Shown piece after piece: positions 40,588 to 52,270 of a stretch of DNA of 64,000 nt. The stretch is taken from positions 1 through 64,000 of the forward strand of contig JAEUHH010000090.1 of the NCBI GenBank assembly GCA_016795505.1, read 5' to 3'. The notes below the pieces were generated by a model, which ran no database searches, was not told the DNA's origin, and was given only the letters and a program-made list of their open reading frames with translations. The translations under genes were made by a program, and so were the position numbers. The stretch's first letter is position 1. Each line of letters begins with the position of its first letter. Origin of the DNA: Verrucomicrobiales bacterium. GTDB lineage: Bacteria > Verrucomicrobiota > Verrucomicrobiia > Verrucomicrobiales > DEV007.

Positions 40588-40929
40588 GCCCCCGCCCCTC
40601 CCCAAATCCATGTCAATCAATCCGCTCTCGATCCCAAACAATTCCGTCTCCGCACCAATCCGTGGAGCGACGCGAATCGACAGCCGGGCCATCGACCAAA
40701 TCGAACTGGGCCGCTGCCTCGGCATTTCCTCACGACACTCCGTCGATGGATTCCCAATACCGCTCCCTTTTGTCGCCAGACCACCGTCTCCCGGCTGACT
40801 ATTGCACAGAGCCGGCCACCAGCTGGGCGATCGGCTGGACAAGCTGGTGCCGCTCATCGCCGACCGTTCCCCCACCTTCGGCCCCGCGTGGCGGAATGCG
40901 CGGAACATCTACGACTCCGGCGGCCCGTC
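40588..40929. other. Border of the restriction island, no confident gene
   Basis: A 62-codon frame from the ATG at 40610 to 40798 and a further open stretch from 40802 ([18 protein letters not shown] ... [10 protein letters not shown]) look partly protein-like. Neither has a domain I recognise. The second is in frame with the hsdM relic and may be part of its ruined leader. Confidence 0.35.
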
Positions 40930-41080
40930 CCGCCGTCGTCGAGTTCGGGGTCGGCTTGAGGCTTGGCGCCAGCTGGCTTGGCGCAACGGGGCGCGGATTT
41001 GGGGTTGCCTTGGCGGAGTCGGCAGGGTAAGAAACGGGCGTTCCCACCCCGCTGAACCGCCTCTCCCGATCATGCCCCGC
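40930..41080 (+). repeat. Duplicated hsdM leader, copy 1
   Basis: About 150 bp beginning GTCGTCGAGTTCGGGG and ending at CCCCGCTGAACCGCCTCTCC plus the ATG of an hsdM relic recurs, with scattered changes, at 44098-44253 before a second hsdM relic. Confidence 0.75.
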
Positions 41081-42271
41081 GTTGCAAAAGCCCAGATTGA
41101 CAGTGGCATGGAGGATTCCACGGCCAAACGTGGCTTCGAAGCGACAATCTGGCTCGCCGCCGACCCGTTCGGCGACAACTTCATCTCCGGGCAGGACAAA
41201 CGGGAGCAGCAGCAGCAGCGGCCATTTCGCGTCGGGAAGCGAAACCCCAGGGTGAGGCTGCGGCGGCAGCAGCCGAAACAAAGCAACGCCAACACCCGCC
41301 GCCTCGCCATCAAGAACCTCGCCATCCGCGGCATCCGCGGCATCGAGGCCGACATCGGCAAGGAACACGCCGACACCTTCCGCCTCGTCCAGCATCCCGA
41401 CCTCCGCGCCGACTACGTCCTCGCCAACCCGCCCTTCAACGACTCCGACACTGCCCTGCGCGGCAGCGCATTCCTTCAAAGCGAAGCCAAACCGCAGGTC
41501 GTGAGCGAAGCGAAGGACAATTTCCGCAAGGACGACGACGTGCGCTGGCAATGGAGCGGAGCGACATGGACCACCCGACAGGGTTGCCCGGAGGGTGCAC
41601 GCGGGGGCGTTCATCAATTCGGCGTTCCGCCGAAGGGGAATGCCAACTTCGCCTGGGTGCAGCACTTCATCCACCATCTCGCTCCGAACGGGATGGCCGG
41701 GTTTGTCTTGGCGAGTGGGAGCATGTCGTCGAACCAGTCCGGCGAGGGCGAGATCCGGAAGGCGATCATCGAGGCGGACCTCGTGGACTGCATGGTCGCC
41801 CTCCCCGGCCAGATCTTCTACAGCACGCAGATACCTGTCTGCCTTTGGTTCCTCGCAAAAAACAAAGCCGCCGACGCCAAACGCGGCTTCCGCGACCGCC
41901 GCAAAGAGACCCTCTTCATCGACGCCCGGAAAATGGGCACCCTCATCGACCGCGTCCACCGCGAGTTGACCGACGCCGACCTGGAGAAAATCACCTCCGC
42001 CTACCACGCCTGGCGGAGAGACAAAGACGCGGGCAAATACCAAGACGTGGCCGGCTTCTGCAAATCCGCCACCACTGCCGAAATCGCCGCGCACGGCCAC
42101 GTCCTCACGCCCGGCCGCTACGTCGGCGCCGAGGAAGTCGAAGATGACGGCGAGCCCTTCGAGGAGAAGATGCCGCGACTTGTCGCCGAACTGGCGGGCC
42201 AATTCATGGAATCAGCGAAACTGGAAGCCGCCATCCGGCAAAACCTGAAGGGACTCGGCTATGCGCTCTGA
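41064..42271 (+). pseudogene. hsdM: Type I restriction methyltransferase HsdM, internally deleted and interrupted
   Basis: The frame is open (402 codons) but the protein is mutilated. It begins MPRVAKAQ, keeps [10 protein letters not shown] from the N-terminal helical domain, then jumps through a Q/R-rich patch to [13 protein letters not shown]. About 190 residues are missing, including motif I (SAM-binding, FxxxxGSGGMF). Motif [10 protein letters not shown] is present, but the next conserved block is split by two in-frame insertions: 24 codons ending EAKDN before [10 protein letters not shown], and 22 codons ([19 protein letters not shown] and on) before [15 protein letters not shown]. The remainder, including [18 protein letters not shown] and the tail LKGLGYAL, is normal. 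It cannot bind SAM as usual and is almost certainly inactive. Confidence 0.85.
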
Positions 42272-42409: not shown

Positions 42410-43096
42410 ATGAATGGGGCGTTTTTCCAGCAGATCGAGGCCATCCTCCATACGGAGCGCATTGACGCCTACCGGCAGGACGGAGCAGCGCCCGCGCTCA
42501 CGCTCGCCCGCTACATGCTGAACATGGCCTTGAGCGAATCGCTTTATCCGACCCTCCAATTCGCCGAGATCGCGCTCCGCAACGCCGTGCACCGCGAACT
42601 CACCGCCCGCTGCGGCACCGATGCCTGGTATGACTCGCCGCTCGCACGGCTTACCTCCTGGCAGCAAGACAAGGTGGCGGAAGCGAAAGCCGCGCTTGCG
42701 AGAAACCGGAAACCGCTCACGCCGGGGCGAATCGTGGCCGAGCTGACTTTCGGATTCTGGACCGGCTTTTTCAACAACGCCCACGCCCGCACCGGTATCG
42801 GCTCCTTCCTCTCCCGCAACGCCTTTCCCCACGCCCCCACCACGGAGCAATACCAAGCCAGACTCGATCGCCGTTGGCAGGACATACGCGACCTCCGCAA
42901 CCGCGTCTTCCACCACGAACGCATTCTCCACTGGCGGGATCTGGATCACCGCCATCAAGCCATCCTCGAAATCATCGCCTGGATGTCGCCGGAATTGCAC
43001 GATTTTGCCAAGGCTCTCGACCGCTTCATTTCGATTCGAAGCGACGGCTTGAATCCGTGGGTCGCAAAACTCCAAAGCAAATGGCCCAAACCATGA
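42410..43096 (+). CDS. Abi-like (abortive infection, HEPN-type) protein
   Basis: A 228-residue all-helical protein: ILHTERIDAYRQ near the start, LYPTLQFAEIALRNAVHREL in the middle, and RDLRNRVFHHERIL around residue 165. The last contains R-N-R-V-F-H, the RxxxxH motif of HEPN ribonucleases and of the Abi_2-like family involved in phage exclusion. It stands between the first hsdM relic and an hsdM tail. Its TGA overlaps the ATG of that tail (ATGA at 43093-43096), so it is embedded in the former operon. It is the sort of gene often inserted between hsdM and hsdS. RNase activity is inferred from the motif. Confidence 0.75.
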   Translation: MNGAFFQQIEAILHTERIDAYRQDGAAPALTLARYMLNMALSESLYPTLQFAEIALRNAVHRELTARCGTDAWYDSPLARLTSWQQDKVAEAKAALARNRKPLTPGRIVAELTFGFWTGFFNNAHARTGIGSFLSRNAFPHAPTTEQYQARLDRRWQDIRDLRNRVFHHERILHWRDLDHRHQAILEIIAWMSPELHDFAKALDRFISIRSDGLNPWVAKLQSKWPKP

Positions 43097-43266
43097 AACC
43101 TCAGGTTGATCACACGGAAAAGATGCCGCAGCTCGTCGCCGAACTGCATGCGCAGTTCCCTTCACTCCTCTCCCGCTGGGAGAGGCCGGGTGAGGGTGCT
43201 TGCCTATCCGCGAAGCTGGAGCAGGCCATCAACGCAAACCTGAGGGGGCTGGGTTATGGCGGGTGA
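43093..43266 (+). pseudogene. hsdM: HsdM C-terminal tail relic carrying a REP-like hairpin
   Basis: The 57-codon frame reads EKMPQLVAELHAQF, then an in-frame insertion, then SAKLEQAINANLRGLGYGG. It parallels the end of the first hsdM relic ([15 protein letters not shown] ... [19 protein letters not shown]). The insertion contains CTCTCCC-GCT-GGGAGAG (43171-43187) followed by GCCGGGTGAGGG, a REP-like palindrome. It overlaps the hsdS frame by 11 bp at its end. This is evidence that the Abi-like gene was inserted near the hsdM 3' end and that the locus was partly duplicated. Confidence 0.75.
43171..43199. repeat. REP-like palindrome inside an hsdM tail
   Basis: CTCTCCCGCTGGGAGAG (7-bp arms) followed by GCCGGGTGAGGG; this pattern is familiar from extragenic palindromes in several bacterial phyla. 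Here it lies in frame within a former coding sequence. Confidence 0.6.
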
Positions 43267-43855
43267 AAGTTGGCAGCAGACGAAAGTGGACGAAATGATT
43301 CGTCGTGGCGTGCTCGCGCTGAACGACGGCTACCGCGTTCGCAACGTCGAGCTTGGCCCAGTAGGAATCCCGTTCGTTCGCGGCGGGGACATCGGCGACG
43401 GCGGAATCAACACCGCAGTCGAAGACCACATCCGGCCTGAGTTCCCTTACCGCGTTCAGTCGAAGCTCACCCGCCCCTTCGATGTGGCCTTCATCACGAA
43501 AGGCACTGTTGGCCGCGTTGGAATGGCTCGCCCCGGTCAGCCGCAGTCAGTCTTCGCGCCACAAGTGTGTTATTGGCGCTCGCTCGACCCCGACCAGTTG
43601 GAGCCTCGTTTCCCTTTCTACCTTCTCACCTCCGCAGAGTTTCAGGCGAACCTCGACGCCGTAAAGACGCACGGCTCGATGGCCGCCGATTATGTGAGCA
43701 TGACCGACCAGCGGGATTTCCGGCTCACGTTTCCTCCGATTCGAGAGCAAAAAGCCATCGCGGCGGTGCTTGGGGCGCTGGACGACAAGATCGAGTTGAA
43801 CCGGCCGATGAATGCGACGCTGGAGGCGATGGCGCGAGCGCTGTTCCAGAATTGA
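43256..43855 (+). pseudogene. hsdS: Type I specificity subunit HsdS, N-terminal half only
   Basis: The 199-codon frame covers one target-recognition domain and the first conserved spacer: FVRGGDIGDGGINT, TRPFDVAFITKGTVGRVGM, DYVSMTDQRDFRLTFPPIREQ, IAAVLGALDDKIELN and ATLEAMARALFQN, then TGA. Intact HsdS continues SWFVDFDPVRA; a VDFDPVRA is found just after the stop (43860 on), so a small change removed the readthrough. The second recognition domain is replaced by a low-complexity tract. A half HsdS could in principle dimerise, but with no intact HsdM here it is probably inactive. Its ATG overlaps the hsdM tail by 11 bp. Confidence 0.82.
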
Positions 43856-43859
43856 TTCG

Positions 43860-44110
43860 TGGACTTCGACCCCGTCCGCGCCATCCCTGCCGCCGTCGTC
43901 CTCTTCCTCCAGCCCGTCGTCATCCTCGTCGTCGAGCTGGAGTTCGCCGGGATCGCCGTCGCCTTCATCTTCGTCGTCGCCGTCGTCCTCATCGAGTTCT
44001 TCCTCGTCGTCCCCGCCGCCGCCGCCGCCTTCCTCCTCGTCGCCGTCGGCATCCTCGTCGAGTTCGCTCCAGTTGCCGGAGCCGCCGTATCCCCCGCCGT
44101 CGTCGAGTTC
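43860..44110. other. Low-complexity TCGTC-rich tract replacing the second half of hsdS
   Basis: About 250 bp of GTC/TCC/GCC-rich, imperfect triplet-like repeats. Read on the plus strand it gives a hydrophobic V/A/L/I/F-rich stretch; on the minus strand it gives an acidic D/E/G-rich stretch. Neither looks like a real protein. It runs into the second hsdM leader copy. Confidence 0.6.
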
Positions 44111-44253
44111 GGGGCCGGGGTGAGGGGGAGGAGCGGGTTGGCTTGGCGCGAGGGGGCGCGGATTTCGGGTTGCCCTTCGTGAGGCTGGAGGGTAAGAAGC
44201 AGGGGTTCCCACCCCGCTGAACCGCCTCTCCCGATCATGCCCCGCGTAGCCGA
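44098..44253 (+). repeat. Duplicated hsdM leader, copy 2
   Basis: The counterpart of 40930-41080: begins GTCGTCGAGTTCGGGG, ends with the identical CCCCGCTGAACCGCCTCTCC plus ATGCCCCGCGT, and is followed by another hsdM relic. Confidence 0.75.
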
Positions 44254-44542
44254 AGCCAAGATTGCCCGTGGCAAGCAGACTCGCGTTGCCAACCATGGAT
44301 TTAAAGGTGGGTTTATCCTCGCCAGCGGCAGCATGTCCTCCAACCAGTCCGGCGAAGACGACATCCGCAGCGCCCTCATCGAGGCCGACTTCGTGGACTG
44401 CATGGTCGCCCTCCCCGGCCAGCTCTTCTACAGCACGCAGATTCCCGTCTGCTTCTGGTTCACTGGGAAAAACAAAACGCTCGATTCGGAGAACGATGCC
44501 CGTTTGTTTGATGGCGAAACGGAACTCAACTTGGTAGCCTGA
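44237..44542 (+). pseudogene. hsdM: Second HsdM relic (two short segments joined)
   Basis: A 101-codon frame. [12 protein letters not shown] parallels the start of the first hsdM relic ([12 protein letters not shown]). It jumps after ~25 codons to [20 protein letters not shown] and on through [19 protein letters not shown] before ending in unrelated residues. The shared block differs from the first relic at many sites, so the two derive from different hsdM alleles rather than a recent copy. All catalytic motifs are lost. It ends 4 bp before the methyltransferase gene. Confidence 0.8.
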
Positions 44543-44546
44543 CGCC

Positions 44547-46028
44547 ATGAAGATCGCGGTAATAGAAAACTCCAGAAGTCGTCAGGAGGAACTCGGACAG
44601 TTCCTCACCGCGCCGCCTGTAGCTGACTTCATGGCGTCGATGTTTGGTCCTCTGCCGCGAACCGTGCGCCTGCTCGATGCTGGCGCCGGCGCTGGCTCAC
44701 TCACCAGCGCTTTCGTCTCCCGGTGTTGTGAAAAGCGCGACGGCGTCCGCGCCATCGAAACGACGCTCTACGAACTCGACGGTGAAATCCTCGACGCGCT
44801 GGCCGAGACGATGCGCGAGTGCGTGCACCGCTGCGCCGACGCGGGCATCCGCTTCACATTCACCATTCACTCCGCCGACTTCATCCGGGAAATGTCGGCG
44901 CGTATCGCGGGCGACTTATTCGGCACGCATCCTCCCGTCTTCGATGTCGCCATTGCTAATCCACCGTATCGCAAAATCAGCACCGACTCCGCTGAACGCC
45001 GCGCACTGCGTTCCGTCGGCGTCGAGACCAGCAACCTCTACACCGGTTTCATTGCGCTCATCCAACGCCTGCTCGTTCCCGGCGGGCAACTCGTCGGCAT
45101 CACGCCTCGGAGCTTTTGCAACGGCCCTTATTTCCGTCCGTTCCGCGAAGACTTCTTGAGCCAACTGGAACTTCGTCGCCTTCACGTCTTCGATTCCCGC
45201 CAAGCCGCATTCCGCGATGACAGCGTCTTGCAGGAGAACATCATTTTCCACGCGGTTAAGGGCCGGAACCAGCCAGACGAACTCATCATCTCCAGCAGCA
45301 GCGGCGAGCACGGTGGCGACGTCACCGAAGCCACCTTTCCATTCGCCGAAATCGTCCACCCACGCGACCCCGAGAAGTTCATCCACATCCCCTCCACGGC
45401 CAGCCATGCCACGGCCAAGGAGGCGCTAAGTGAACTCCGCCACAGCCTCGCCTCGCTAGGGGTCACCGTCTCCACCGGGCGCGTGGTGGACTTCCGCCTC
45501 AAGGACGCCCTGCGCAAGGAGCCCGAACGCGGCACCGTGCCGTTGCTCTATCCCTGCCACTTCAACGGCGGCACCGTCCACTGGCCCAAGCTCGAAGCCC
45601 GCAAGCCCAACGCTATCCTCGACAACGACGAGACGCGTCCGTGGCTTGTGCCCTCCGGCGTGTATCTGCTCACGAAGCGCTTTACGTCGAAGGAAGAGCG
45701 CCGCCGCCTCGTGGCCTGCCTCTTCGACCCGGACGAAGTCAAAGCCGAGTGGGTCGGCTTCGAGAACCACCTGAATTACTTCCACGCCAGCGGGCACGGC
45801 TTGGAGCGCACTCTGGCCGTCGGCCTCTACGCCTTCCTGAACTCCACCGTGGTTGACCAGTATTTCCGACGCTTTAGCGGCCACACACAGGTGAACGCCA
45901 CCGACCTGCGCACCCTCGCCTATCCCGACCGCGAGACGCTCCAAGCGATGGGCCGCGACATGAAGAGCCTCGACCTCTCGCAAGACGAAATCGACCAACT
46001 CGTCACAAAGCACCTTAATGCCCGCTGA
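44547..46028 (+). CDS. DNA N6-adenine methyltransferase, BsuBI/PstI type
   Basis: A 493-residue enzyme. Motif X-like EELGQFLTAPPVADFMAS is at the N-terminus, motif I is LLDAGAGAGSLTSAF, and the catalytic motif IV is VAIANPPYRKI. The order X-I-IV and the RQEELGQFLTAP opening are characteristic of M.PstI/M.BsuBI-type adenine methyltransferases, which protect CTGCAG. The C-terminal half is the target-recognition region. The downstream endonuclease gene overlaps it by 11 bp, so the two are coupled. Specificity for CTGCAG is inferred from family. This gene looks intact, unlike the type I genes around it. Confidence 0.9.
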   Translation: MKIAVIENSRSRQEELGQFLTAPPVADFMASMFGPLPRTVRLLDAGAGAGSLTSAFVSRCCEKRDGVRAIETTLYELDGEILDALAETMRECVHRCADAGIRFTFTIHSADFIREMSARIAGDLFGTHPPVFDVAIANPPYRKISTDSAERRALRSVGVETSNLYTGFIALIQRLLVPGGQLVGITPRSFCNGPYFRPFREDFLSQLELRRLHVFDSRQAAFRDDSVLQENIIFHAVKGRNQPDELIISSSSGEHGGDVTEATFPFAEIVHPRDPEKFIHIPSTASHATAKEALSELRHSLASLGVTVSTGRVVDFRLKDALRKEPERGTVPLLYPCHFNGGTVHWPKLEARKPNAILDNDETRPWLVPSGVYLLTKRFTSKEERRRLVACLFDPDEVKAEWVGFENHLNYFHASGHGLERTLAVGLYAFLNSTVVDQYFRRFSGHTQVNATDLRTLAYPDRETLQAMGRDMKSLDLSQDEIDQLVTKHLNAR

Positions 46029-47013
46029 TAAGCCCAACCGCAAAGCCGCCGCCCGGAAGAAACGCCTCGCCGAAGCCGTCGAAGCGCTCACGGCGTTGCA
46101 GTTCGGTCCGAAACAGCGGAATGAAACCGCCGCCTACACGTTGCTTGCCCTGCTCGACCTCCAGCCGGATGCCGCATGGGCCGACGCGCAGTCTCCTTTG
46201 CGTGGCATCACTCCCATCATTGACTTCGTCGCGACTGCCTACGGCAACCGCTACGCCCCCAACACCCGCGAAACCATCCGCGACGACGCGGTGAAGTTTT
46301 TCGTCGAGGAGGGACTTCTGCTGCGCAATCCCGATGATCCCAACCGCCCGACCAACAGCGGCAAGACGGTATATCAGATCGAGCCGACCGCCCTCGCGCT
46401 CTTCCGCACGTTCGGCACCCTCGAATGGACTCCCGCCTTGGCGCACTACCTCGCCAGTCGCGAAACCCTCAAGCACGAGATTGCCCGGAAGCGCGACCTC
46501 GCCCGCGTGCCCGTTACCTTGCCCGACGGTTCCCCAGTCGCGCTCTCACCCGGCGGCCAGAATCCGCTCATCAAGGCCATCATCGAACACTTCTGCCCCG
46601 CCTTCGCCCCCGGCGGCGTGGTCCTCTACATCGGCGACACCGAAAACAAGTTCGTCCATCTGGAGACCGCAGGCTTGGCCGCGCTCGGCGTCACCTTGGA
46701 TTCCGCCGCCAAGATTCCCGATGTCATCGTCCATGACACCAATCGAAACTGGCTCCTGCTCATCGAAGCCGTCACCAGCGCCGGGCCGGTGGACGGCAAG
46801 CGCCGCAAGGAACTCAAGGACCTGTTCGCCGGCTGCAAAGCCGGTCTCGTCTTCGTCACAGCCTTCGAAACCCGCCGCACCATGCAGACCTTTGTATCAC
46901 ACATCGCCTGGGAATCCGAAGTCTGGATCGCCGAAGCCCCCGACCACATGATCCATTTCAACGGCGAGCGGTTCCTTGGGCCGTATCCAGACGTGATGCC
47001 GATAGACCCATGA
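46018..47013 (+). CDS. Restriction endonuclease of the BsuBI/PstI family
   Basis: A 331-residue protein. The N-terminal half (LTALQFGPKQRNETAAYTLL, GITPIIDFVATAYGNRYAPNTRET) is the winged-helix-like recognition part. The C-terminal half is the PD-(D/E)xK-like nuclease with LYIGDTENKFVHLE, KIPDVIVHDTNRNWLLLIEA and VTSAGPVDGKRRKEL. This arrangement is diagnostic for the BsuBI/PstI family, which cuts CTGCAG. It overlaps the methyltransferase gene by 11 bp. The frame is complete and key residues are present, so the pair is probably active. A RloC-like gene follows after 42 bp. Confidence 0.9.
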   Translation: MPADKPNRKAAARKKRLAEAVEALTALQFGPKQRNETAAYTLLALLDLQPDAAWADAQSPLRGITPIIDFVATAYGNRYAPNTRETIRDDAVKFFVEEGLLLRNPDDPNRPTNSGKTVYQIEPTALALFRTFGTLEWTPALAHYLASRETLKHEIARKRDLARVPVTLPDGSPVALSPGGQNPLIKAIIEHFCPAFAPGGVVLYIGDTENKFVHLETAGLAALGVTLDSAAKIPDVIVHDTNRNWLLLIEAVTSAGPVDGKRRKELKDLFAGCKAGLVFVTAFETRRTMQTFVSHIAWESEVWIAEAPDHMIHFNGERFLGPYPDVMPIDP

Positions 47014-47055: not shown

Positions 47056-49287
47056 ATGATCCAGCAAATCGACCATCTTCGTGACTTCGGCATCTACCGC
47101 AATTTTCAGGGCGGCGGCCTGCCGGCTTTCGCGAAGTGCAATCTGATTTACGGCTGGAACTACTCAGGCAAGACCACTCTATCGCGGCTGTTTCAGATTC
47201 TCGAAAAGCCCGACCGCATCGCTAGTTGGCCCAACACATCCTTCCGAATCGTCCTCGGCGATGGCTCGGCAGTGACCCACACGTCGTTGGCAACAAATCC
47301 CCCGCCCAAGACTCGCGTCTTTAACCGCGAGTTTGTCGTCGCCAACTTTGCTCATGAGCACACCGCTCCCGCAGTCTTCATTCTTGGCGCTCAAAACGTG
47401 GCACTGCGGCATCGCCTCGAATTGCTGAACCGCCGTCGGGAACGCGTGGCGCATTTGGAGGCCAGGCTTCTAGAGCGAGCGAAGCAGGCACAAGGTGAAA
47501 TCGACCAACTAGGCACAGACAAGGCTAGTGGCGCGGGCAGTCTGCTGGGAGTCCGAAACTTTCGTCGCCCCGATTTAATGCGGCGAGTCGAGGAAGTGCG
47601 GCAAAACTACGCGTCTGCCGTTCTAGCAGATGCCGAAGTGACGGCGAAGCTCGAGATTTGTCGGACGACGAGTGCTTGGTCGGTGCTGAACCCTGTTCCA
47701 ACGACGGTGCCGGATTGGATCGCAGTCTCTGCAAGCGTTGCCGCCTTGCTGGGGCAGACTGCATCAAACCGCGCGATTGAGCGCCTAAAGTCTGACCGCG
47801 ACTTGGAAACCTGGGTCCGCACTGGCATGGCGCTTCACCAAGACAAGCGAGAGTGTGAGTTTTGTGGTTCGCCAATCAGCGATACGCGGCTGGAGTTGCT
47901 GAGGGGGCACTTTTCCCAAGAGTATGAGGCCCTAGTCCGAGAACTGATCGCGAAGGTTCAAGACTGTCAGAATCTCCGGCTGGATGCGGCCCTTCCAGAT
48001 GAGCGAGATTTCGCCCCCGACCTCAAGGCTGAGTTCACAGGTTTGCGCAATCAATTCCAGAATTGGAAGGAGTGGGCCGGCCAGGTGCAGGCGAGAATGG
48101 TTGAGGCATTGAACCAGAAGAAGACGCGAATCGAAGCCGCGATTGCTTGGGAGGCCGATCTGTCGCGCGCTGCGGAAGGGCAGACGCTGTTGGATCAGGT
48201 CAATGCGCTCATCCAACGACACAACCAAGCTGCCAATGAATTGACCCAAGCAAAGGCAAACGCGAGGGCTGCGCTTGAAATGCATTTCGCGGCGGTGCTG
48301 TTCCGCGACAACGACCTGACCGGGAAGGAAGACCGCGTGGCGGTGGCTCGCCAACGTGCAACGGACGCAACGGGAGTGTTGAGCCGCGTGGCGGCTCAAA
48401 TCACAGCCGTCGAATTGCGGGTGCGCCAGCAATCCATCGGCGCAGCAAAGCTTAACGATGTGCTACGTTTTCTCCTCGCGGGAAACAACATCGAGGTTGC
48501 GGCTGTTGGCGATGGCCTGTTCGAGTTCCGTAGGGACGCCGCGCCAGCAGCAAACCTCAGTGACGGGGAGAAGACCGCCATCGCGTTCGCCTATTTCCTC
48601 ATAAGCCTCGAAGCAAACGGAGCGGTGTTGGCGGATACCATCGTATTCATTGACGACCCCATTTCCAGTCTGGACTCAAACCACATCTACGCCGTTTACG
48701 CTCTCATTGCCGAACGCCTTGCTGCCTGCCGACAAATCTTTGTTTCCACGCACAACAGCGAACTTTTCAACCTGATGAAGGATGAGTGGTTCGAGGCACG
48801 CTCGCGTTACGCGAACAACCGGGATGCCTGCGCCTACTACGTGAACAGGACGCTTGATGGCGGCGCGCAGTGGATGGCAGCCCTGGAAGACCTGCCTGCC
48901 TTGCTTCGCAAGTATAAGTCAGAATACCACTTCATTTTCGCGCAGTTGCACGCATTCGCGAACGCTCAAGCACCTTCGCTGCATGAGGCATACACCGCGC
49001 CGAACCTCCTGAGAAAATTCCTGGAGGCATACCTTGGTTTCAAGAAGCCCTGTGTGTCCAAGTGGTCGGACAAACTCGACCTGCTGTTCGCAACGCCAGA
49101 GGAACAACGTGAGATTCAGAAATTCGCGGACGATGCGTCCCATCTCCAAGGTGTGAGCCGGGCGTTGCAGCAACCGAACTTCATCACGGCCGCTCAATCG
49201 TGTGTGGGCAAGGTGATCGCTGGCCTGAATGCCCGGGACTTCGACCACTACCAATCACTTTGTAACGTCATCGGAGCGACACCTTGA
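47056..49287 (+). CDS. rloC: RloC-like ATPase / anticodon nuclease
   Basis: A 743-residue protein. The ABC-type ATPase head is split: Walker A is G33-WNYSGKT near the N-terminus; the signature ANLSDGEKTAIAFAYF, Walker B TIVFIDDPISSLDSNH and H-loop IFVSTHNS lie after residue ~490. Between them is a long coiled-coil region with a zinc hook, C267-EFC270. After the ATPase comes a nuclease-like domain with R653-KFLE657 and a histidine in DDASH696. This mirrors the PrrC triad (R-x3-E ... H). RloC cleaves tRNA anticodons on DNA damage or phage attack and usually sits in type I restriction loci, as here. The alternative GTG start at 47023 adds 11 residues. Confidence 0.8.
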   Translation: MIQQIDHLRDFGIYRNFQGGGLPAFAKCNLIYGWNYSGKTTLSRLFQILEKPDRIASWPNTSFRIVLGDGSAVTHTSLATNPPPKTRVFNREFVVANFAHEHTAPAVFILGAQNVALRHRLELLNRRRERVAHLEARLLERAKQAQGEIDQLGTDKASGAGSLLGVRNFRRPDLMRRVEEVRQNYASAVLADAEVTAKLEICRTTSAWSVLNPVPTTVPDWIAVSASVAALLGQTASNRAIERLKSDRDLETWVRTGMALHQDKRECEFCGSPISDTRLELLRGHFSQEYEALVRELIAKVQDCQNLRLDAALPDERDFAPDLKAEFTGLRNQFQNWKEWAGQVQARMVEALNQKKTRIEAAIAWEADLSRAAEGQTLLDQVNALIQRHNQAANELTQAKANARAALEMHFAAVLFRDNDLTGKEDRVAVARQRATDATGVLSRVAAQITAVELRVRQQSIGAAKLNDVLRFLLAGNNIEVAAVGDGLFEFRRDAAPAANLSDGEKTAIAFAYFLISLEANGAVLADTIVFIDDPISSLDSNHIYAVYALIAERLAACRQIFVSTHNSELFNLMKDEWFEARSRYANNRDACAYYVNRTLDGGAQWMAALEDLPALLRKYKSEYHFIFAQLHAFANAQAPSLHEAYTAPNLLRKFLEAYLGFKKPCVSKWSDKLDLLFATPEEQREIQKFADDASHLQGVSRALQQPNFITAAQSCVGKVIAGLNARDFDHYQSLCNVIGATP

Positions 49288-49344: not shown

Positions 49345-49479
49345 CAGAACGACACACCCATCGAGAAGACGGACGCAAAAACGCGGGTCGTCTTCGGCGA
49401 CTACATCAGCATCTACGACATCCAGCGGGCGGTCGCCAACAAGGCGACAGTGCCGATCTATTACGAGAGCCGCATATAA
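49345..49479 (+). pseudogene. hsdR: HsdR relic (44 codons)
   Basis: The plus strand reads [19 protein letters not shown], then [17 protein letters not shown] and IYYESRI before a TAA. [40 protein letters not shown] is the hallmark helicase-domain segment of the type I restriction subunit HsdR. Only this piece survives, immediately after the RloC-like gene. It shows that the island was once a full hsdM-hsdS-rloC-hsdR type locus. Confidence 0.85.
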
Positions 49480-52217: not shown

Positions 52218-52270
52218 GGTTCCGATCAGACCGGGTTGGATCTCCGATGGTACCCTGTTTCATCGGAAAC
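52218..52270 (+). repeat. Dispersed palindromic repeat, copy 5 (inverted form)
   Basis: Cores begin at 52222 (CCGATCAGACCGGGT) and 52244. The second has the reversed centre (GGTACCCTGTTTCATCGG) and the copy ends GGAAACTCC. It lies 14 bp past the end of the small exported protein gene and upstream of the protease promoter. Confidence 0.88.

Follow-up and report, generated by a model that had tools for sequence, protein, structure and literature searches.

The gene at positions 47056-49287 (forward strand) of the 64,000-nt stretch of DNA analysed here (the window, to which all positions refer unless labelled otherwise) encodes a 743-residue protein (plus stop) that, by homology, is probably a bona fide RloC, a DNA-end-triggered anticodon nuclease, which has outlived its type I restriction locus; we put the probability of this reading at roughly 0.8. 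In the protein, coiled coils bearing a CxxC hook interrupt the ABC-ATPase head, and the C-terminus holds a predicted HEPN-like nuclease domain. Gene integrity, motifs, conservation, predicted fold and locus structure were all observed in this work.

The open reading frame begins with ATG and has no internal stops. This ATG is likely to be the start, because the closest relative, from a Verrucomicrobia subdivision 3 MAG (L002; 77% identity, 575 of 743 residues), is also 743 residues long and starts at the same residue, with a gapless alignment. The Pfam profile AAA_13 matches residues 11-701 (E 7.6e-115), and the best PADLOC profile, the candidate defence family PDC-S06, matches the full length (residues 1-737, E 3.6e-245), with no differences found. 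The PADLOC model for PrrC matches only residues 500-626, in the ATPase (E 5.5e-16), and none of the NCBIfam profiles compared with the product scored above its curated cut-off. RloC proteins are described as ABC ATPases of 658-897 residues that are interrupted by a coiled-coil insert with a CxxC motif and end in a triad Arg-X3-Glu-X36-52-His in which Ser often precedes the His (PMC2610378). The window protein has the size, the ABC motifs, the hook insert and an R-X3-E-X38-SH triad, like the RloC proteins of G. kaustophilus and A. baylyi (Davidov and Kaufmann 2008; Klaiman 2013), and the RloC-like identity proposed in an earlier note on this DNA is thereby borne out. As far as the sequence can tell, the gene encodes an ordinary, full-length protein of the standard RloC type. 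PrrC likewise joins an ABC ATPase to a C-terminal triad, but it is 341-416 residues long, has no hook insert and is linked to type Ic restriction-modification (R-M) systems. Membership of the PrrC family was rejected on the length and the CxxC insert of the window protein, and in place of the intact type Ic hsd locus of PrrC only hsd fragments lie around rloC.

All residues named in the earlier note were located by script at the positions given there, with coordinates obtained by arithmetic. Walker A (GWNYSGKTT, residues 33-41) is encoded at 47152-47178, the ABC signature (LSDGEK, residues 501-506) at 48556-48573, Walker B with the D-loop (FIDDPISSLD, residues 531-540) at 48646-48675 and the H-loop (STHN, residues 564-567, with His566) at 48745-48756, all on the forward strand, as are the remaining features below. 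The zinc-hook motif C267-EF-C270 (47854-47865) sits between Walker A and the signature, with long predicted helices on both sides. The three predicted catalytic positions were placed by script and alignment, R653-x3-E657 at 49012-49026 and His696, preceded by Ser695, at 49138-49143. The Arg-to-Glu spacing of 4 equals that of the PrrC triad (Arg320-Glu324-His356, spacings 4 and 32; PMC2610378), as the earlier note had it. The Glu-to-His distance of 39, which the note singled out, does exceed the 32 of PrrC, but it is no peculiarity: it groups the protein with RloC, since the G. kaustophilus triad (Arg692-Glu696-His737; PMC2610378) has 41, and the relatives examined here span 37-52.

These relatives were 25 proteins aligned with MAFFT (from four genome contigs, 11 other genomes, nine of 218 matching plasmid records and one of nine matching phage records), a set that is free of biochemically studied RloC proteins. 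They are diverse, with a median pairwise identity of 24.5%, and most are 23-35% identical to the window protein. Both hook cysteines are Cys in all 25, and Asp533, Asp534, Pro535, Asp540 and His566 are identical in all 25; the Walker lysine is kept in 23 (one gap, one Ser). At the triad, position 653 is Arg in all 24 relatives that align there, position 657 holds Glu in 21 of them and Asp in the other three, and position 696 is His in 23 and Thr in one. The single gap at these columns belongs to a fragment, L009, which is unlikely to be an RloC, and the Thr to a Streptococcus phage protein that is annotated as RloC and whose C-terminus aligns poorly (L026). The Arg-to-Glu distance is 4 in all 24. 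The loss of triad residues among homologues that the earlier note would have counted against its reading did not emerge, and no aligned relative lacks the Arg. Chance occurrence of the triad was considered and rejected, because its conservation is far above that of the C-domain at large: the window residue is matched in 24 relatives at Arg653, 23 at His696 and at Asn650, and 21 at Ser695 and at Glu657, compared with 3.5 of 25 at the median C-domain column. Asn650, together with the likewise conserved Glu623, did not figure among the residues listed in the note.

A model of the whole protein, built from 14 alignment rows without the plasmid rows, has a mean pLDDT of 84.4 and a pTM of 0.54, and its best Foldseek matches are SMC and Rad50 heads. 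Arg653 and Glu657 lie within one long predicted helix (residues 642-663) and His696 just past another (681-694). The C-terminal domain modelled alone (residues 584-743; 48805-49284) reached pLDDT 85.8 and pTM 0.76. Foldseek with this model gave no significant match in the PDB (best E 0.36), with HEPN entries among the first 50, and the best hit of the domain profile against PDB sequences was an unrelated adaptor protein (E 0.054). With VIA, the 15 best rows are HEPN proteins, counting 1wwp and 1ylm, which we take to be HEPN-like. The first is the HEPN toxin 7ae8 (Z 8.3, rmsd 3.6, 113 residues aligned), followed by HEPN-MNT complexes, Csm6' and Las1. Z falls from 8.3 to 5.8 across the rows, with about 102-116 residues aligned, and values under about 13 may reflect an arrangement common to helical bundles. 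Four VIA or Foldseek rows just below the HEPN rows are non-HEPN proteins, for example aminoglycoside nucleotidyltransferases and catenins. Structure prediction of this region agrees with the earlier expectation of a nuclease fold in that its nearest resemblance is to HEPN RNases, and because of the range of Z we grade the HEPN fold of the modelled domain as likely.

The same resemblance bears on the substrate. HEPN domains are described as including mRNases and rRNA-processing enzymes (PMC3710099), and HEPN toxins, Csm6' and Las1 are the best VIA rows here. The protein might thus be an ABC-HEPN RNase of the same fold whose target is mRNA or a different site in tRNA, with no excision of a wobble base; the low identity to most relatives, and the make-up of the comparison set described above, leave room for such a shift. 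Both in its full-length architecture and in its R-X3-E-X36-52-SH triad, however, the protein follows the studied RloC proteins, and we regard a different RNA target as unlikely, if not negligibly so.

Studied RloC proteins are reported to be switched on, via their ATPase, by linear or broken DNA, to be inhibited by zinc through the hook, and to cleave anticodon loops: that of A. baylyi cuts tRNA-Glu and tRNA-Gln, and that of G. kaustophilus excises the wobble base (PMC2610378; PMC3874168). The DNA trigger, zinc switch, tRNA target and anti-phage role that we propose for the window protein are carried over from these proteins. It would be a one-protein alarm in which a Rad50-like ABC ATPase carries a coiled-coil arm with a zinc hook and, at the C-terminus, a HEPN-type RNase. 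Dimers joined via the CxxC hook would keep the nuclease inactive until linear or broken DNA stimulated ATP hydrolysis and so unlatched it; Arg653, Glu657 and His696 would then cut the anticodon loop of tRNA, and the cut would stop translation and with it phage growth.

The rloC gene is surrounded by the remains of a type I locus. A broken hsdM with leader DNA (40811-42263) consists of pieces at 40811-40934, 40929-41164, 41282-41449, 41522-41551 and 41624-42263, and a broken hsdS (43207-43883) of pieces at 43207-43267 and 43745-43883. A second copy of the hsdM leader (43864-44278) and a second hsdM scrap (44309-44476) together occupy 43864-44476. An hsdR scrap of 41 codons (49350-49475) begins 62 bases past the rloC stop. 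With the locus of a Methanoperedens MAG (L004) as reference, the type I pieces are hsdM at 41276-42247 and 44303-44476, hsdS at 43619-43864 and hsdR at 49354-49467. An intact locus of the order hsdM-hsdS-three ORFs-hsdR is present in the same genome (G000) on contig 37 (L045:1489-11506). Nine pieces of it, each at least 61 bases long, match the broken locus at 86-92% DNA identity, and a tenth piece of 30 bases matches at 96.7%; two weaker matches (77% over 57 bases at 52221, and 70% over 112 bases) were left out of this count. The hsdR piece (126 bases) is 89.7% identical to contig 37 in DNA and 92.7% identical to the intact HsdR in amino acids. Between hsdS and hsdR, contig 37 has a Mrr-like ORF, an HD-domain ORF and an ORF without family assignment, and no rloC.

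On contig 37, the intact hsdM is preceded by DNA that occurs twice in the island, at 40929-41164 and at 43864-44278; an hsdM scrap comes after each of the two stretches, so that the island holds two broken hsdM copies. It also contains a 228-residue ORF (42410-43096) with a match to Abi_2 below the curated cut-off (E 1.2e-4). The G+C content of rloC is 57.4%, compared with 63.9% for the window, which is consistent with a later arrival of the gene without proving it. In three genomes of the same genus, the left-hand neighbour of the island is present in all and the right-hand neighbour in none, and blastn of the stretches around the left-hand gene in these genomes gave no match to the window right of the island. 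We propose that rloC would have arrived in, or inserted into, a type I locus whose hsd genes later broke, while rloC and the type II pair described next stayed whole.

Directly upstream of rloC lie an intact type II adenine methylase gene of the BsuBI/PstI type (44547-46028, 493 residues; PADLOC type II methylase profiles, E 1e-165) and, overlapping it, an intact BsuBI/PstI-type restriction endonuclease gene (46018-47013, 331 residues; PF17728 and PF06616). Each product matches its family profiles over nearly the whole length, and this combination of endonuclease domains and adjoining adenine methylase identifies a BsuBI/PstI type II R-M system. The description of rloC in the earlier note as the best-preserved long gene in the island consequently stands only in part: rloC is intact, but both type II genes are complete as well. 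Studied rloC genes are sometimes found inside type I loci; here the type I locus is in fragments, and the genes directly upstream form a complete type II pair. On the same strand, 42 bases separate the end of the endonuclease gene from rloC, a closeness that would fit an rloC guarding the pair and firing when it is disturbed. Beyond the window, however, a search of 17 genomes for the endonuclease returned only contig 15 of the same genome, G471 C70, G403 C295 and G469 C122; tblastn of the stretches around the rloC relatives returned no type II homologues; and most relatives that are linked to R-M genes have type I or III systems. A conserved pairing of RloC with the type II system was rejected, as neither search showed it elsewhere, and we hold a guard function to be very improbable. 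The match on contig 15 (17724-18179) is a second BsuBI/PstI-type endonuclease of this genome.

Our preferred reading, an RloC that remained when its type I locus broke, draws on the loci of the relatives. In the closest one, rloC lies just before hsdR in a locus of the order hsdM-hsdS-DUF7380/DUF4209 protein-rloC-hsdR in which all genes are whole, whereas the window rloC stands among type I scraps. The 614-residue DUF7380/DUF4209 protein between hsdS and rloC (L002:4160-6004) overlaps the rloC start by four bases and has no counterpart in the window. In the Methanoperedens MAG the order is hsdM, hsdS, rloC, two further ORFs and hsdR. In at least six of the 13 relatives inspected, rloC is next to an R-M locus (these two, G228 and G352 with type I genes, and G045 and G135 with type III genes), a count for which Pfam scans covered 20 hand-picked neighbour ORFs in nine of the 13, so that the other seven may also carry R-M genes, and that leaves aside the partial or doubtful L008 and L009 and the plasmid and phage records (L017-L026). 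In G444 the neighbour of rloC is HsdS-like only, and in G281 it is HsdR-N-like. In the 2008 paper, type I or III linkage is given for eight of 73 RloC genes (PMC2610378). Relatives in L041 and L044 adjoin a type III methylase and a helicase-type restriction gene, and one in L040 (7264-12284) is flanked by a GmrSD/Schlafen-domain protein on one side and by a Cap15-like cyclic-dinucleotide receptor on the other.

The window adds one more RloC, a single copy in its genome, to a lineage in which such a gene was found at E 1e-20 in only eight of 387 phylum genomes and two of 74 family genomes (own genome counted in both), and at E 1e-3 in none of the three other genomes of the genus. This patchy distribution, judged from sequence searches, is what would be expected of a mobile defence gene. 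Among viral contigs searched for close relatives, none of 11 candidate stretches was confirmed.

Compared with the L002 gene, rloC shows no sign of decay and no acceleration. Relative-rate tests with three outgroups gave 16, 15 and 20 unique changes in the window protein and 22, 17 and 21 in the relative, and of the 76 columns at which at least 80% of 21 relatives agree, the two proteins deviate at the same seven, with the same residue in six. The earlier note had suggested selection on the gene, and the ratio dN/dS of 0.094 (dN 0.141, dS 1.49) agrees with this for the divergence from L002 as a whole. This ratio also covers the time before the hsd genes broke, and dS is near saturation (saturated in the last two domains), so that it does not establish purifying selection since the decay of hsd; integrity is, moreover, shared with the flanking type II genes.

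An intact reading frame may still belong to a recently silenced gene, whose nuclease or regulation is already defective or which is unexpressed. The type I locus around it is in pieces, and PrrC orthologues linked to cryptic R-M systems are reported to be inactive (PMC3874168), so a nuclease that neighbours a defunct R-M locus may itself be inactive; this is the main caution on the activity of the window RloC. A scan for promoters and terminators found one promoter-like sequence (shuffle mean 0.6) and two terminator-like sequences (shuffle mean 3.4), not above noise and no convincing promoter near the rloC start, but so simple a scan says little, and transcripts of the type II operon, whose end is just upstream, may extend into rloC. 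The intact motif residues and the even rates relative to L002 likewise speak against silencing. Furthermore, RloC, unlike PrrC, is reported to be independent of R-M proteins: activation in A. baylyi needed neither HsdR nor HsdM and was unchanged in hsd mutants (PMC3874168), so loss of hsd need not silence the window gene. On balance we find silencing decidedly improbable and favour a functional RloC that survived its type I locus.

Only the broken type I locus around rloC, together with its close intact counterpart elsewhere in this genome, goes beyond routine interest. In A. baylyi, the dependence of RloC on R-M was probed with an unlinked R-M system only. The window RloC, intact amid a broken type I locus, its 77% identical relative in a whole one and a close intact HsdMSR in the same genome together make a set suited to a direct test of whether a linked R-M protein is required by RloC or restrains it. 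We consider it quite unlikely, though worth stating, that the surviving rloC now responds in trans to the nearly identical intact HsdMSR encoded on contig 37, or that no R-M protein governs it any longer. If so, the intact locus of the relative and the broken one of the window would form a natural before-and-after pair for an RloC freed from its hsd partner.
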